Positions 3,509 to 9,161 of a stretch of DNA of 11,211 bases are shown here, piece by piece. The translations under genes were made by a program, and so were the position numbers. The notes beneath the pieces are model-generated. The model ran no database searches. It had not been told where the DNA came from and saw nothing but the letters and a program-made list of their open reading frames with translations. This DNA comes from Chloroflexi bacterium RIFCSPLOWO2_02_FULL_71_16 (lineage in GTDB: Bacteria; Chloroflexota; Limnocylindria; P2-11E). Each line of letters starts with the position of its first letter. Within the stretch, counting starts at the first letter, position 1. The stretch covers positions 6,161 to 17,371 of the forward strand of contig MGON01000124.1 of assembly GCA_001795345.1 (NCBI GenBank). Reading direction: 5' to 3'.

Positions 3509-3798
3509 CCCTCCTCGGGACCCCAGCTGATCCTGAAGTCCCGGAAGCGCGCGTCCCCATCCAGATCCACGGCCTCGACCCGCTCCACGTCCGCGAGACG
3601 AGGGCCGTGGCCGAGCCACTCGCGGAGCCGATCGAGCGCAGCGCCCTCCCCCTCGGCCACGCACTCGACCGCGCCGTCGCTGCGATTCCATACGCGGCCC
3701 GTCAGGCCCAGCCGCCTGGCGTGATCGGCGGCGGTCGCCCGGAAGTTCACGCCCTGCACCATCCCGCGGACCACGAAGCGCCGTCGTGCCAGCGTCAG
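3505..3798 (-). CDS. acyP: Acylphosphatase, probable CTG start overlapping the polX stop
   Basis: About 97 residues, the normal size of this small alpha/beta enzyme, which hydrolyses acyl phosphates to a carboxylate and phosphate. The signature GMVQGVNFR is at residues 12-20, with the phosphate-binding Arg20, and WNRSDGAVE carries the catalytic Asn. The C-terminus FRDFRISW matches the last strand. The start is a puzzle: GTG at 3774 would cut off the first beta strand, and GTG at 3942 would add 48 residues of unrelated sequence lying inside polX. CTG at 3798 gives MTLARRRFVVRG, exactly the usual lead into the signature; it overlaps the polX TGA as CTGA and has GAAGG a few bases upstream. Translational coupling to polX is likely. 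The gene ends tail-to-tail on the plus-strand membrane protein gene, sharing CTAG. Confidence 0.88.
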   Translation of the reverse strand: MTLARRRFVVRGMVQGVNFRATAADHARRLGLTGRVWNRSDGAVECVAEGEGAALDRLREWLGHGPRLADVERVEAVDLDGDARFRDFRISWGPEEG

Positions 3799-5546
3799 CC
3801 CTTGCCTTCGAGATGCCGGCGCAGCTCGGTCAGCGCCATCGTGTTCTGCACGCTCTCCTTGGTCGCCCAGCCGCGGCGGGCGGTCGCGACCGCGTACTCC
3901 ATCTGGTCGAGCTCCTCGATCGCGTGCGCGTCGGAGTTGCACACCAGCATGGCGCCGACCTCCATGGCCCGGCGCACCGCGATGTCCGAGAGGTCGAGCC
4001 GCTCCGGCCCGCCGTTCACCTCGAGCCGCGTCTTCGTCCGGACCGCCGCCTGGATGACGGCCTCGAGGTCCACCTCGTAGGCATCGCGCTTCTCCAGGAG
4101 CCGGCCCGTGGGATGCGAGATCGCGTTCACGCGCGGGTGCTCCATCGCGCCGAGGATCCGCTTGGTCATGACGTCGCGGGCCTGGGCGAACGACGAGTGC
4201 ACCGACGCCGTCACCACCTCGAACATACCGAGGAGACGGTCGTCGTAGTCCAGCTTGCCGCTCGCGCGGATGTCCGTCTCGCTCCCGATGAGGACGCGGA
4301 ACGGCGCCAGACGCCGGTTGACGGCCTCGATCTCGACGTTCCGCGCCCTGATGCGGTCCTCGGTCAGGCCCTTCGTCATGCCCAGGGCGACCGAGTGGTC
4401 CGTGAGCGCGATGTACTCGTAGCCCTTGCCGCGGGCGCGCTCCGCCATCTCGGCGACGGTGTCGCGACCGTCGGACCAGCTCGTGTGAGCGTGGAGGTCG
4501 CCCCTGATGTCACCGAGCTCCACGAGATCGGGCAGCTCGTGGGCGACCGCCGCCTCGATCTCACCGCGGTCCTCCCGAAGCTCGGGCGCGATCCAGTCCA
4601 TGCCGAGCGCCGCGTAGACATCCTCCTCGGTCCGCGACGCGATGGGCGTGCCGTCCTTCTCCTCGCCGACGCGGTAGAGGCCGTACTCGTTCAGCAGCAG
4701 CTTCTTCTTTAGAGCGAGCCCGCGGAGGTGGACGTTGTGGGCCTTCGAGCCGGTGAAGTACACGAGGGCGGCGCCGTACGAGGCCGGCGGTACGACGCGC
4801 AGGTCCAGCTGCAGGCCGCGCTCGACGACGACCGACGACCTCGTGTCGCCCCGCGCGATCACGCGCTCGACCCCGGGCGCCGCCACGAACGCTTCCATGA
4901 TCGGGCCGGCGGCGTCGGCTGCCACGACGATGTCGACGTCGCCGATCGTCTCGCGCCAGCGCCGCACGCTCCCCGCGACCACCATCTGCGGCGGGTCGCA
5001 GCGCTCCCGCAGCCACGCGACCATCTCGGCCGCGGCGGCGCGCGCGTCGACGACGAGCGCCCGGCCGGTCCGCTGCCGCAGTGACCCGATCGCTTTCAGG
5101 ATGTTCTCTTCGGTCTTGGCCTGGAACTTCGGAAGCGTGCGGAGCCGTCCGGTCTTGGCCGCGGCCTCGAGCTCGTCGATCGTCGTGATCCCGAGCGTCT
5201 TGTGGATGGTCCTCGCGGTGGCCGGGCCCACGCCGGGGACCCGCAGCAGCATCAGCAGACCCGGCGGGACCTGCGCCTTCAGCTCCTCGTGACGCTTCGC
5301 GGTGCCGGTGGTGAGCAGCTGCTCGATCGCCTCGGCGATGGCCGGGCCGACCTTCGGGATCTCGCTGAGGCGCTTCTGCTCCATGAGGACGCGGAGCGGC
5401 TCGCGCAGGTCGCGGATGGCGCGAGCGGCAGCACGGAAGGTGACCGCGCGGAACGGGTTCTCGCCCTTCAGATCGCTGAGGTCACCGATCTCCTCGAGCA
5501 CGGCGGCCACCTGCTCGTTGTCGTGCGTGAGGGAGACGCGGGGCAC
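3795..5546 (-). CDS. polX: DNA polymerase/3'-5' exonuclease PolX (family X polymerase with PHP domain)
   Basis: 583 residues, typical for bacterial PolX, a gap-filling base-excision-repair polymerase. Order: N-terminal helical 8-kDa-like region (about 8-60) with helix-hairpin-helix motifs IPKVGPAIAEAI (63-74) and VPGVGPATARTI (103-114); nucleotidyltransferase palm with GSVRRWRETIGDVDIVV (192-208) giving Asp203 and Asp205, and the third carboxylate Asp248 in LQLDLRVV; YFTGSKAHN (263-271); then a C-terminal PHP metal site with DLHAHTSWSDG (Asp350, His352, His354), LTDHS (383-384), Glu423, His450, AISHP (His478) and NSDAH (Asp539, His541). All PHP ligands look intact, so exonuclease or AP-endonuclease activity is expected from the family. 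The start is GTG, without a Shine-Dalgarno, 6 bp after TATCGT. It precedes the acylphosphatase with a 4-bp overlap. Confidence 0.95.
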   Translation of the reverse strand: MPRVSLTHDNEQVAAVLEEIGDLSDLKGENPFRAVTFRAAARAIRDLREPLRVLMEQKRLSEIPKVGPAIAEAIEQLLTTGTAKRHEELKAQVPPGLLMLLRVPGVGPATARTIHKTLGITTIDELEAAAKTGRLRTLPKFQAKTEENILKAIGSLRQRTGRALVVDARAAAAEMVAWLRERCDPPQMVVAGSVRRWRETIGDVDIVVAADAAGPIMEAFVAAPGVERVIARGDTRSSVVVERGLQLDLRVVPPASYGAALVYFTGSKAHNVHLRGLALKKKLLLNEYGLYRVGEEKDGTPIASRTEEDVYAALGMDWIAPELREDRGEIEAAVAHELPDLVELGDIRGDLHAHTSWSDGRDTVAEMAERARGKGYEYIALTDHSVALGMTKGLTEDRIRARNVEIEAVNRRLAPFRVLIGSETDIRASGKLDYDDRLLGMFEVVTASVHSSFAQARDVMTKRILGAMEHPRVNAISHPTGRLLEKRDAYEVDLEAVIQAAVRTKTRLEVNGGPERLDLSDIAVRRAMEVGAMLVCNSDAHAIEELDQMEYAVATARRGWATKESVQNTMALTELRRHLEGKG

Positions 5547-5669: not shown

Positions 5670-6980
5670 CTAGCGGGCGGCGGTCCCTCGGGCGAGCTCG
5701 AGCATCTCGAACGCCGCGTCGACCTCGCCGCGCGCGCGAAGCAGGTGCGCGTATTCGGCGGCCATGCCCGAGCGGTCGGCGAAGTCGCCGACCGAGGTGT
5801 ACAGGTCGAGGGAGCGGCGGTACGCCTTGTCCGCCTCGGAGGTCTTCCCGAGCGCCTCGTACGCGGCACCCGCGGCACCGAGTGCGTCGGCGCGCTGGAT
5901 CGCATCGGCCGACTCGTGGAGGATCTGCTCGGCGTGCTTGGCCATGCGCAGGGCCTCGTCGGCCCGGCCGTCCTTCAGCGCCACGCGCGCGAGGATCACC
6001 TCGGCGACGGCGGCCCAGTGCGCGTTCCCGACCTCGAGCGCCCGGCTCATCGCGCGCTCCGCCGATGCCTTCGCGGCAGCCATATCGCCGGTGTCGAACT
6101 GGACCGTCGCGATCGACTGCAGGGCGTTCAGCTCGAAGTCGATGTCGGCCACGCGCTGGAACAGGTCCAGGGCGCGGCGGTAGCTGCCGATAGCGGCGTC
6201 GAGCTCGCCGGAGTCGTAGTGAGTGGCGGCGATACCCATGAGCCCGCGGGCGGCGGTCGTGAGCTCGCTGGCGCGCGACGCGACGGCTAGGCCGGTCTCG
6301 TACGCGGTGATCGCCTTCGTCGTTCGGTTGAGCCGTCGATAGGCTGTGCCGAGCGCGACCGACACGCGCGAACGGAGTCGTGGCTCGACGACCTCGTACT
6401 TCTCCAGCATGTCGCGCGCGGCCTCGAGAGCTTCGACCGCGGCGACGAGCTGCCCGAGCTCTCCGTACGCGGTGCCCCGCAGGTACAGAAGCCCTCCCAC
6501 GAGGTTCGGCTCCGTGGCCGGGTCGACGAGCGACATCGCTTCCGACACGAGGGCGAACGTGCGCTCGAAACTGTGATCGGCCGATTCGGTGATGGCCTGC
6601 AGGTGCAAAAGGTGGGCGCGCTCGCGTGCCTCGGGCGAATGCTCGAGCGCGATCCCGACGTTCCGCCGGACCTCGGCCCAATCACGCCGCTCGGCGGCGG
6701 TCTCCGCGGCCAGCCGGTGGAAGGCCAGACGCTTGCCGGCGGCCAGAGGCTCATCGGCGATGAAGTAGTCGAGCGGCTTGCCGAGGCGCGAGGCGATCAC
6801 CTGCAGCGATCGGATGGACGGACGGACGATCCCGGACTCGAGCTGACTGATGAAGCCCTTGGTCAGCTCCTGGCCGGCCAGTTGAGCCTGGCTCAACCCA
6901 AGCTCCCGCCGGGCGGTCCGAACGCGCTCGCCGAGGGCAGCGGCCACCTTCGGGCGCTCGACCTGCTCGCTTATGCCCAT
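5670..6980 (-). CDS. XRE-family HTH regulator with C-terminal TPR repeats (RRNPP-like architecture)
   Basis: 436 residues from ATG at 6980, chosen because GGAGGG (6984-6989) lies 3-4 bp upstream; the open frame continues further but without homology. Residues about 14-73 form an XRE/Cro helix-turn-helix: the turn and recognition helix lie in LSQAQLAGQELTKGFISQLE (29-48), with SGIVRPSIRSLQVIASRLG after it. Residues about 85-436 are alpha-helical tetratricopeptide-like repeats rich in Ala, Leu, Tyr and Gly at repeat positions (for example RGTAYGELGQLVAAVEALE, GAAYEALGKTSEADKAYRRS). No membrane segment is present. One HTH plus a TPR array is the layout of the RRNPP peptide receptors (PlcR, NprR, PrgX, Rgg), in which TPRs bind an imported peptide; TPR regulators with other inputs also exist. 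It is divergent from a 58-aa secreted peptide gene 130 bp away, with an inverted repeat between. Regulator class is sure; peptide sensing is inference. Confidence 0.9.
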   Translation of the reverse strand: MGISEQVERPKVAAALGERVRTARRELGLSQAQLAGQELTKGFISQLESGIVRPSIRSLQVIASRLGKPLDYFIADEPLAAGKRLAFHRLAAETAAERRDWAEVRRNVGIALEHSPEARERAHLLHLQAITESADHSFERTFALVSEAMSLVDPATEPNLVGGLLYLRGTAYGELGQLVAAVEALEAARDMLEKYEVVEPRLRSRVSVALGTAYRRLNRTTKAITAYETGLAVASRASELTTAARGLMGIAATHYDSGELDAAIGSYRRALDLFQRVADIDFELNALQSIATVQFDTGDMAAAKASAERAMSRALEVGNAHWAAVAEVILARVALKDGRADEALRMAKHAEQILHESADAIQRADALGAAGAAYEALGKTSEADKAYRRSLDLYTSVGDFADRSGMAAEYAHLLRARGEVDAAFEMLELARGTAAR

Positions 6981-7015
6981 TGACCCTCCGTGGAGACGCG
7001 ATCGGAGACCATTTT

Positions 7016-7046
7016 GACAGGCGGAGCCCTTGCGGCAGCGCCTGTC
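7016..7046. promoter_or_regulatory. Inverted repeat gacaggcg-N15-cgcctgtc, candidate operator
   Basis: Perfect 8-bp arms at 7016-7023 and 7039-7046, centre to centre 23 bp or about two helical turns, in the divergent region between the HTH/TPR gene and the small peptide gene. This geometry suits a dimeric XRE regulator. The right arm falls within the candidate promoter of the peptide gene and the left arm covers the region expected to hold the regulator's promoter, so binding could control both. Confidence 0.5.
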
Positions 7047-7058
7047 TGGTCGTAATAA
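7030..7058 (+). promoter_or_regulatory. Candidate promoter TTGCGG-N17-TAATAA for the secreted peptide gene
   Basis: TTGCGG (7030-7035) and TAATAA (7053-7058) are 17 bp apart in the local AT-rich dip. A start near 7065 would leave a leader of about 45 nt before the Shine-Dalgarno. The match to the consensus is partial. A TTGACA at 7014-7019 has no partner -10 at a proper distance. Confidence 0.35.
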
Positions 7059-7110
7059 CAGGGCACACCTTAGCGTCACTGAACGGGCGCGGGAAGCGAG
7101 GGGGAGCGAA

Positions 7111-7287
7111 ATGACACGCATCAGACAGTGGGCGGTCGCGCTGGCGTTCGCGGCGGCGCTTGCCCTGTCCTTCTCCTCGCTCGCGTCGGTCGCTTCGGCT
7201 GACCCCGGCGACGGCGGCTTCAGCTCCCGGAGCGCCCGGCCAGCGATCTCGGCCCAGAGGGCCGACCCCGGGGACGGCGGCTGGTAG
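7111..7287 (+). CDS. 58-aa secreted peptide with duplicated ADPGDGG motif; candidate pro-peptide signal
   Basis: ATG at 7111 follows GAGGGGGAG (7098-7106) at good spacing. The N-terminus MTRIRQW is basic, residues 8-27 are hydrophobic (AVALAFAAALALSFSSLASV), and Ala-Ser-Ala at 28-30 is a fine signal peptidase I site, leaving a mature peptide of about 28 residues. That peptide begins DPGDGGF (31-37) and ends ADPGDGGW (51-58), so ADPGDGG is present twice (30-36 and 51-57), 21 residues apart, each followed by one aromatic residue; a Ser/Arg-rich linker joins them. No cysteine is present. I do not recognise a family. Size, signal peptide, motif at the very C-terminus and position divergent from an HTH/TPR regulator resemble RRNPP pro-peptides such as PapR. 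Alternatives are a Ca-binding or RiPP-type peptide; no modifying enzyme is nearby. Confidence 0.75.
   Translation: MTRIRQWAVALAFAAALALSFSSLASVASADPGDGGFSSRSARPAISAQRADPGDGGW
7198..7284 (+). repeat. Direct coding repeat encoding ADPGDGG(F/W)
   Basis: The 24-bp units 7198-7221 and 7261-7284 start 63 bp apart, both in frame, and match at 20 of 24 bases. Two of the four differences are synonymous third-position changes; the other two turn the last codon from Phe to Trp. This points to duplication followed by retention of the peptide motif. Confidence 0.8.
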
Positions 7288-7335: not shown

Positions 7336-7545
7336 GTGCCCGCCGCCATCTCGACCGACAGACGCCAGCTCATCGAGATCGGCGACAGGCGCTTCCTTTT
7401 CCAGCACGGCTACCGGTTCGGCAAGGTCACGTACATCACGCGCCTGCCGCTCGAGCGCAACATCTTCGTCTGGACCCCTGGACACCTGACGCCCGAAGAG
7501 GTGGAGACGGTCGTCCGCGGTGACAACCCCTGGATGCTGGAATAG
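7336..7545 (+). CDS. 69-aa hypothetical protein between the peptide gene and dtd
   Basis: GTG start at 7336, no Shine-Dalgarno, CATACT just upstream. The protein is soluble, with no signal peptide or membrane helix, and mixes beta-like segments (RRQLIEIGDRRFLFQHGYRF, KVTYITRL, NIFVWTPG) with a short acidic helix (LTPEEVETVVRG). I do not recognise the family. It ends 24 bp before dtd on the same strand, so the two may be co-transcribed. Composition and domain-like pattern make it likely to be coding, though the reverse strand is also open here. Confidence 0.6.
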   Translation: MPAAISTDRRQLIEIGDRRFLFQHGYRFGKVTYITRLPLERNIFVWTPGHLTPEEVETVVRGDNPWMLE

Positions 7546-7569: not shown

Positions 7570-8034
7570 ATGAGGGCCGTCGTCCAGCGCGTCCGGTCCG
7601 CGAGCGTGGACGTCGGCGAGGAGCGCATCGCGGCCATCGGCGCGGGGCTCGTGGTCCTCCTCGGCGTCGGCGCCGGCGATGCGCCCGAGGACGGCGAGCG
7701 CCTCGCGGCCAAGGTGGCCGGACTGCGGATCTTCGACGACGCGAACGGCAAGATGTCCGTTTCGCTCCCAGACACTGCGGGCGAGGTCCTGGTGGTGCCG
7801 CAGTTCACGCTCTACGGCGACGTCCGGCACGGCCGCCGGCCGGACTTCACGCGCGCGGCGCCGCCGGACAAGGGCGAGCGCCTCTACGACGCGTTCTGCG
7901 GCGCGCTCCGCGGGACCGGCCTCGCGGTCGCGACGGGCCGCTTCGGCGCGATGATGCGCGTCACGCTCGAAGGCGACGGCCCGGTCACCATCGTCGCGAC
8001 GACCGACGGCTGGGACGAGGCGGCCCTGCGCTAG
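7570..8034 (+). CDS. dtd: D-aminoacyl-tRNA deacylase (DTD)
   Basis: 154 residues, close to the family norm. DTD frees tRNA from wrongly attached D-amino acids (and glycine on tRNA-Ala) in the cytoplasm. The N-terminus [32 protein letters not shown] (47-62), [12 protein letters not shown] (88-99) and ATGRFGAMM are classic. The two signature motifs are altered: the usual SQFTLY is Pro77-Gln78-Phe79-Thr80, and the usual NxGPVT is GDGPVT (135-140). The Gly137-Pro138 pair, which provides the chiral-proofreading cis peptide, is kept. ATG at 7570 has only a weak upstream purine signal. It may be read with the 69-aa ORF 24 bp before it. It is convergent with the M28 peptidase gene. Confidence 0.95.
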
Positions 8035-8064: not shown

Positions 8065-9161
8065 TCACTCGAAGCGCGCGAGCTCGAGGGCCGTCGCCAG
8101 CGTCAGCTTCGCGGCCTTCAGCCAGAGGCCTTTGTTCGTGATCTTGTCCGGCGTGTCGTTGACCGTGTGGAAGAAGCCGTTACCGGGATAGGTCGCATCG
8201 GCCGGGCCATAGCGCTCCGTCAGCGTGACCGAGGGGATCCCGGCCGTCCCGAACGGCGCTGTGTCCAGGATGTACCGCCTCGGATCGTTCGCGAAGACCT
8301 CGACCAGCGACAGGCCGATCTGGTAGCGCTCGTTCACCGCCTTCACGCGGTCGCGTAGCTGGTCGGACTGCGGGCCGTACCAGATGAGGTCGAGGCGGTC
8401 CGCGATCGGGTTGAACCCGACCATGTCTATGTTCACGACGTAGGCGAACGGGTATGGCGGAGCCTCCTGCGACTCTGACTGAAGGTATGCGGCGCTTCCC
8501 TTGAAGAAGAGCTCTTCTCCGTCGAAGAACGCCAGGATGATGCGACCCTGAATGCACGCGCGGCTGGAGGCCAGTACCCGCGCGTATTCCAGCAGGGCCG
8601 CAGTTCCAGTCGCGTTGTCGTCCGCGCCGGGCGCGGGGTCAGCGGCCGGCCTCCAGCCGGGTGTTCGCACGGCGATGGAGTCGTAGTGGGCGGCCACAAG
8701 GACCCAGTCGTGGGTGACCACATCGGTATGACGACCCGGCTCGATCGTCACGAGGATGTTCGTCAGGGGGATCCCCTGATAGACGGTCTTGTGCTCGCTC
8801 ACGACGGCCTCCGGGATCGCCGCAAGCTGCTCCTTCACGTAGGCGATGGCCTGCGCGTGCCCCGGGTGCCGCGGATCGCGCGAGCCGAAGCTCGCGAGCG
8901 CCCGCATGTGGCGGTCGAGCTGTGCGGGATCGATCACGGCGATGGCGCCGCGGACGTGCTCCTCCGTACCGAACTTCTGACAGGGCGGAGCGGGCGTCGA
9001 TGGCGGGGTCGCCGGAGCGGTCGTGGTCGCGATCGTCACGGACTCGGCCGGCCCAGACGGCGACTGCGTCGCTGGCGCGGTCGGGCTTGCCGCGGGCGAT
9101 GCCGAGCCGAGGCACGACGTCGCGACGAGCAGGATCGCGAAGAGCGCGGCGAGACCGCGGG

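Follow-up and report, generated by a model that had tools for sequence, protein, structure and literature searches.

Peptide-signaling systems of the RRNPP type are recognized by a signature that, in the sections of the RRNPP_detector paper devoted to it, comprises a receptor of 250-500 aa with tetratricopeptide repeats (TPRs) and a directly adjacent propeptide of 10-100 aa, separated by a gap of -60 to 400 bp and exported by the Sec pathway according to SignalP (PMC10075063). In those sections, the helix-turn-helix (HTH) domain PF01381 belongs to candidates with transcription-factor activity, and similarity to reference receptors over at least 60% of both lengths serves as an extra characterization outside the signature (PMC10075063). 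Sensing of this type is known from Bacillota and the mobile elements they carry. As described in the corresponding parts of each source, that survey searched Firmicutes and viruses only (PMC10075063), and another located the genes in Firmicutes genera, all but one of them within Bacilli (PMC9765709). No such system is reported for Chloroflexota among the open-access PMC matches listed, subscription papers and preprints lying outside that scope; the one listed match that contains both RRNPP and Chloroflexi concerns Streptococcus parauberis (PMC13118402). Here we describe a pair of divergent genes in an 11,211-nucleotide stretch (hereafter the window) of Chloroflexi bacterium RIFCSPLOWO2_02_FULL_71_16 (contig MGON01000124.1, positions 6,161 to 17,371; source assembly of 1.93 Mb, 78% complete). 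We consider it quite likely that this pair is a two-gene peptide-signaling module working like RRNPP systems, outside Bacillota.

The first gene (5670..6980, minus strand, ATG at 6980) encodes a 436-aa XRE-HTH/TPR regulator, the proposed intracellular receptor, recognized from its open reading frame (ORF), Pfam matches and an AlphaFold2 model. Its HTH domain covers about residues 16-74 (6759..6935, minus strand) and is matched by Pfam HTH_3 at residues 21-73 (E = 5.9e-9; 36.3 bits, cut-off 23). TPR_12 (9.7e-21), TPR_1, TPR_8, and TPR_2 all score above cut-off, and the model, with a mean predicted local distance difference test score of 91.4, shows the HTH followed by nine TPR helix pairs at residues 81-431 (5688..6740, minus strand). 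Across a 130-bp divergent intergenic region (6981..7110), a candidate shared promoter/operator, lies the gene for a 58-aa exported propeptide (7111..7287, plus strand; ATG at 7111, stop codon ending at 7287), preceded by a Shine-Dalgarno-like GGGGGAG (7100..7106, plus strand). The 58-aa protein begins with basic residues and continues through a hydrophobic stretch to ASVASA, which is followed at once by DPGDGGF; DPGDGGW forms its C-terminal end. The signal peptide predicted by rule takes up residues 1-30, with the cut after ASVASA (7111..7200), and the two motif copies lie at 7201..7221 (DPGDGGF) and, C-terminally, at 7264..7284 (DPGDGGW), all on the plus strand. The initial annotation had described this regulator, gap, and peptide gene at the correct coordinates; its mature part opening with DPGDGGF and closing with ADPGDGGW is read directly from the translation, and its high-GC lineage is Chloroflexota. 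Set beside the signature, the regulator has the size (436 aa) and TPR families of a receptor as well as an HTH_3 domain, and the divergent 58-aa propeptide gene at 130 bp falls within the limits of size and adjacency.

Orthologues were searched for in 101 genomes and then in 177 genomes of the class. The regulator has an orthologue in 24 of the 28 family genomes, counting the window's own and a G014 copy truncated where its contig stops, and in one sister-family genome, G028. Two further family genomes retain fragments only, G015 at a contig end and G021 in a decayed form, and the search of the 28 found no regulator orthologue in G005 and G010, which belong to genus g6. In these two genomes, some 30 bp separate the starts of polX and orf69-dtd (45-46 bp between the aligned parts), which leaves no room for regulator or peptide. 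A small signal-peptide gene adjoins every regulator orthologue (25/25), and the refuting condition set by the initial annotation, most orthologues lacking one, is not borne out. This ORF is divergent and on the same contig in 24 of the 25, and in G017 the pair is joined across a contig break through dtd. The expectation that it should always end in DPGDGG and an aromatic residue proved half right: the neighbor is constant, but the endings in relatives include DPGDGAVP, DPKDGG, DPIDPG, EDPW, and DPGYPQ. In G021, the regulator survives as two pieces, residues 178-229 and 356-431, and the small ORF beside it (L065, G021:C21:11000-17256) has 39 codons and a single EPGDPG; to judge from the sequence, this is joint decay of regulator and peptide.

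With this remnant and the 25 neighbors, the peptide set of the locus numbers 26. Signal peptides were judged by our own n/h/c-region rule rather than by SignalP, and all 26 pass it. Across 24 other loci, ORFs that pass the rule occur four times in 136,558 strand-bases, or about 0.006 per 200-bp window; these control loci are weak chance matches of a single-peptide query and not a strictly random sample. That query, the single peptide, gave matches in 87 of 101 genomes at E values up to 1; of those checked, this locus accounts for the matches in G000, G007, G012, G014, G018, and G021; the remainder were treated as chance. A peptide profile run against 400 genomes of the phylum returned three matches, every one in the same family. 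Because of this narrow return, sequence search appears blind to diverged peptides, which are found by their position beside the regulator. The small gene is under purifying selection, with a ratio of nonsynonymous to synonymous substitution (dN/dS) of 0.16-0.51 in 12 close, non-independent pairs, and the possibility that the peptide is absent from or not conserved in close relatives does not hold.

In the window's peptide, the self-repeat has p = 0.0005 against 2000 shuffles. In the same comparison with a crude cut site, 15 of the 26 genomic peptides show self-repeat at p < 0.01, one at 0.037, and 10 none. The units found twice differ between relatives: DPGDGGGF (L003, L004), PEDPGFGG (L008, L013), PVDPGYPQ (L015), FPSDPGEP (L017), and EDPW (L020), with FPEDPW present two or three times in L022-L025. 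Protein searches returned 12 peptide relatives and later 138, the best 120 of 138 being taken. The set analyzed comprised 116 peptides (P0123-P0238 minus one of 137 aa, plus the window's), or 112 after removal of near-duplicates; it is biased to the DPGD type because the search was seeded mainly with such sequences. At least two [DA]PxD copies are present in 71 of the 112, three to five in 10 of these 71. P0134 and P0229 have DPGDGGID/DPGDGVID copies behind a different signal peptide (MKKITAFLLSL), one of them on a 63.9-kb contig, and are perhaps from another lineage.

Within a peptide, the first and last copies change in concert. They agree at position 3 in 69 of 71 peptides (shuffled mean 49.4), at position 5 in 66 of 71 (33.5), at position 6 in 65 of 71 (60.5), at position 7 in 52 of 71 (13.4), and at position 8 in 43 of 66 (10.9), each with p = 1e-4; in a smaller test, of 14 proteins, p was 5e-5. 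DPKD, DPND, DPFD, DPID, and DPLD each occur like with like. P0169 and P0184 likewise match DPSD with DPSD, and P0146 matches DPDD with DPDD, but P0233 combines DPSD with DPGD, and P0145 combines DPDD with DPGD. One could suppose that the repeats are a recent internal duplication of a functionless low-complexity Gly/Pro region, the units being short and rich in Gly, Pro, and Asp. However, identical residues of the two copies are encoded by different codons in 32 of 95 comparisons (12 loci with DNA), so the identity of the copies is not merely recent copying. Moreover, dN/dS is below 1, and the copies are fixed at both ends of the multi-copy peptides, the first directly after an A-x-A-like, signal-peptidase-like site in 71 of 71 and the last beginning 7-11 residues before the C-terminus, again in 71 of 71. 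These observations largely refute a functionless duplication, which we regard as hardly credible. Gene conversion followed by drift may be the source of copy identity.

Receptor and peptide were then compared as pairs. Twenty-five metagenomic regulators were matched to peptides by identical contig size and a common source label; two of the regulator relatives, P0013 and P0066, carry the source names Candidatus Limnocylindria and Limnocylindrales. Exact contig size links 26 peptides with the 25 regulators (P0155 and P0189 share one), and pairing with shifted sizes matches 1.46 on average and 5 at most, so one or two metagenomic pairs are possibly false. Together with 24 genomic pairs (L021, incomplete, was dropped), they make up 49 pairs, and with L002-L005 the 29 pairs of the DPGD clade. 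Each variable regulator position was tested for association with peptide distance after correction for overall regulator distance, by a Mantel-type permutation that leaves some ancestry effects in place. Residue 285 is the best position in both sets, with family-wise p = 0.011 for the 29 pairs and 0.001 for the 49. In the window it is an asparagine (codon at 6126..6128, minus strand) that covaries with motif position 3. By the TPR register rather than by inspected coordinates, it is placed at position 2 of TPR6, a canonical concave position, and is expected on the concave face. Of the 29 clade regulators, 26 have Asn285, and at least one motif copy in each of their partner peptides has Gly as its third residue. 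The other three are Gln285 with DPND, Gly285 with DPID, and Arg285 with a peptide that has no motif. Among the Asn285 regulators, P0022 goes with an irregular first unit and, toward the C-terminus, SPGDGG, and P0020 goes with APGD. Beyond the clade, Ser285 occurs with EDPW, EDPGF, and others, and the residue is N in 64, H in 25, S in 13, Q in 8, G in 7, R in 2, D in 1, and M in 1 of 121 regulators. This covariation of groove and peptide, at one site and through few events, is suggestive. Of the covariation that the initial annotation had suggested looking for in the TPR groove, one residue shows it; tests of the groove as a whole are weak or negative.

Conservation of the groove is uneven. The concave face of TPR4 is nearly invariant, with a mean entropy of 0.18 versus 1.28 at exposed positions, but that of the preceding repeat is very variable, and we therefore make no general claim of groove conservation. 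In that repeat, residues 158-194, the concave positions have 2.53 bits and the exposed ones 0.85. Residues 159-174 (window 6459-6506) are possibly a specificity region. Whole-groove covariation and whole-groove conservation were both set aside and do not carry the case.

The 130-bp gap contains an element conserved in relatives. The 13-mer ACCGAACTGACAG occurs once each in 8 of the 28 family genomes, all 8 times in this gap, and its backward control in none of the 28. Variants of it appear in an alignment of 22 gaps, and TAGACT lies ahead of the peptide in 16 of the 22. The window's version at this place, TTTTGACAGGCG, falls within a perfect inverted repeat, GACAGGCG-15 nt-CGCCTGTC (7016..7046), that overlaps the site of CTGACAG in relatives. 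A palindromic operator shared by the family was considered and rejected: the window's inverted repeat is absent from 23 other gaps, which have other short ones or none. The exact ACCGAACTGACAG pattern pointed to no further targets of the regulator in the 28 family genomes. An element unique to the locus fits local autoregulation, as far as sequence can indicate. It also fits an arrangement in which the small protein serves as a secreted effector, whether an antimicrobial, a surface, or a modified peptide, under a divergent regulator whose TPR groove senses something else; divergent regulators often control their neighbor. No modifying or transport genes are present among the nine window proteins scanned, however, and neither concerted copies at both ends nor covariation with a groove residue would be expected of an effector, which we consider an unlikely identity for the small protein.

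Export, repeats at both ends, a covarying residue in the TPR groove, the HTH, and the shared divergent control region lead us to propose an RRNPP-type circuit. In this proposal, Sec would export the 58-aa propeptide, and signal peptidase I would cut it at the very start of the first DPGDGG copy. Additional proteolysis would free one or both of the short acidic Pro/Gly-rich peptides, DPGDGGF and DPGDGGW, which could re-enter through an oligopeptide ATP-binding cassette importer encoded elsewhere. Inside the cell, they would bind the TPR groove of the neighboring regulator and alter DNA binding by its HTH; the first target would be the shared intergenic region, giving autoregulation, with other promoters perhaps following. 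We infer cleavage, re-import, binding, the effect on DNA, and a regulon for the module. As the initial annotation stated, the window holds no importer, none being present among its nine proteins scanned with Pfam. All 28 family genomes, including those that do not carry the pair, have members of SBP_bac_5, to which the binding proteins of oligopeptide importers belong; the window's incomplete genome has six matches. Candidate means of peptide import thus exist. Since SBP_bac_5 is also a general nutrient family and genomics does not separate self-sensing from group sensing, the peptide might instead bind the regulator inside the cell that makes it, either prior to export or to report on export or proteolysis, and not act between cells. 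The variety of motifs among relatives resembles specificity types, though, which would be more natural for exchange, and we rate sensing confined to the producing cell as rather improbable. The central proposal of the initial annotation, with ADPGDGG(F/W) as the signal and the regulator as its probable receptor, is supported by the constant pairing (25/25), the concerted copies, and the covariation at N285.

Several observations weigh against a peptide-signaling module. The functionally unrelated LGN equals the Rap proteins as a fold match to the regulator, and concave TPR residues are overall no more conserved than exposed ones (p = 0.27, 0.18). Whole-groove covariation is not significant in the 24 pairs (p = 0.41, 0.49) and weak in the larger sets (p = 0.048 for 49 pairs, 0.16 for 29). 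Common descent makes regulator and peptide distances correlate (r = 0.79 and 0.73 across all pairs, 0.31 in the DPGD clade). The N285 signal hangs on the three non-Asn receptors among the 29, and a strict rule of Asn with DPGD is broken by L006 and L007, which combine DPGDPG with His285, and by L009, which combines DPDDGG with Asn285. Self-repeat at p < 0.01 is missing from 11 of the 26 genomic peptides, two DPxD copies from 41 of the 112 metagenomic ones, and ACCGAACTGACAG from 20 of the 28 family genomes, among them the window's own, which has the variant. Finally, the upstream sequences of the regulator paralogues L173, L174, and L175 (39-44% identity) contain no such peptide, and HTH/TPR fold alone thus does not imply one.

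The paralogues L173, L174, L176, and L175 share 44%, 43%, 41%, and 39% identity with the regulator. Upstream of L175 is a longer signal-like ORF of 124 aa to the contig end, and the upstream sequence of L176 is missing. All four retain most of the groove residues compared in TPR4-TPR5, but residue 201 is Ala rather than Arg; in G018, L175 and the orthologue are arranged tail to tail. Two homologues of 28-30% identity, L029 and L030, have no such peptide upstream.

More distant homologues were found in a second family, f19, in 7 genomes among 400 of Chloroflexota. All 18 genomes of f19 together gave 44 regulator matches, 30 of them with loci, and a short exported peptide lies beside 25 of the 30, in 17 cases of a divergent kind (L206 = L198) and in 8 of a co-directional one. 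Divergent precursors of about 26-30 aa have AD-x-LPG-x ends, for example MNRFVALLVAVAAVVLAVADTLPGGH, MPMYRMFAIIATVVAAVLAVADSLPGPR, and MQRLLMLLGAIAAFVLTTADIMPGWK; the co-directional upstream ORFs of an f19 subgroup have AEVWPNP-like ends or IWPN twice. Scanning of f19 loci L218, L220, and L228 yielded no candidate peptide, L221 had only 81 bp upstream, and L231 lay outside the scan. Both kinds occur within single genomes, such as G338, G495, G268, G525, and G528. In the window's own class, G068 has a similar pair (L172) with a peptide ending in ADIWPTR; the short peptide at L027/L172 was counted only after its kind had appeared elsewhere. The control rate for short-precursor ORFs is 0.007 per 250-bp window, as measured in the window's class (24 loci) rather than in f19. 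The second set of XRE-TPR regulator loci comprises L193-L200, L205-L232, and L172. We lean toward a radiation of RRNPP-like peptide languages of Chloroflexota's own, in which receptor groove and signal change together. Its members would be the divergent propeptides of one order, with multiple copies of the DPxD/EDPW/DPGF types, and at least two kinds of receptor partner in the second family. If this is true, the Bacillota distribution of intracellular peptide-pheromone sensing would greatly understate its age or its mobility. The many receptor-peptide pairs are a natural data set on the joint change of receptor and signal. For an uncultured Chloroflexota lineage known here only from metagenome-assembled genomes and metagenomes, the window also offers a candidate system whose signal is named, and the naming of that signal makes signaling in this lineage testable with synthetic heptapeptides.

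The pair is bordered on the left by a PolX-like DNA polymerase (3795..5546, minus strand) and on the right by a conserved 69-aa protein with no Pfam family (7336..7545, plus strand), followed by the D-Tyr-tRNA deacylase gene dtd (7570..8034, plus strand). The 69-aa protein adjoins dtd in 8 of 8 compared loci, at 52-80% identity, even where the pair is absent. An M28-family peptidase gene (8065-9039), third past the peptide gene and on the opposite strand, may conceivably encode a processing or peptide-degrading enzyme.

Similarity to described receptors is partial. A single-sequence search of the PDB matched PlcR over the HTH alone (residues 13-74, E = 0.004). Among the best 60 of 70 matches by profile were RapJ at 131-320, other Raps over similar stretches, PlcR at 11-125 (2.3e-6), and ComR at 11-69. 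No NprR chain appeared among the PDB matches listed in either search (the best 60 of 70 by profile), and in comparison with PDB chains only, similarity over 60% of both lengths to reference receptors was not reached. As descent is not shown by sequence, we claim a system that is RRNPP-like in its working, not a member by descent. A search of viral structure models with the regulator returned mostly generic TPR proteins. The arbitrium system AimR-AimP is phage-borne; in contrast, viral contigs yielded eight stretches that matched a pattern, none encoding a relative of this regulator. Rap-Phr, including Phr3T/Phr105 with their tandem pheromones, differs in that Rap has no HTH, according to the relevant part of one survey (PMC9765709). 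PlcR-PapR of the Bacillus cereus group is similar in combining an HTH-TPR regulator with an exported propeptide, and PapR7, given as ADLPFEF in a portion of PMC6568020, loosely resembles the AD-x-LPG endings of the f19 precursors. Repeated pheromones within one propeptide are described for Rap and NprR in parts of two papers (PMC11343458; PMC9765709), the latter of which reports, for NprR, repeated mature peptides in 17 of 17 atypically large propeptides and places the Bacillales pheromone gene immediately downstream of its receptor (PMC9765709). The pair described here differs from NprR-NprX of Bacillus in belonging to Chloroflexota and not Bacillota, in its propeptide gene, which lies divergently upstream, and in its DPGDGG-type motif. 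It shares with NprR-NprX the HTH followed by nine TPRs, the adjacent small exported propeptide, and the repeated mature peptides.

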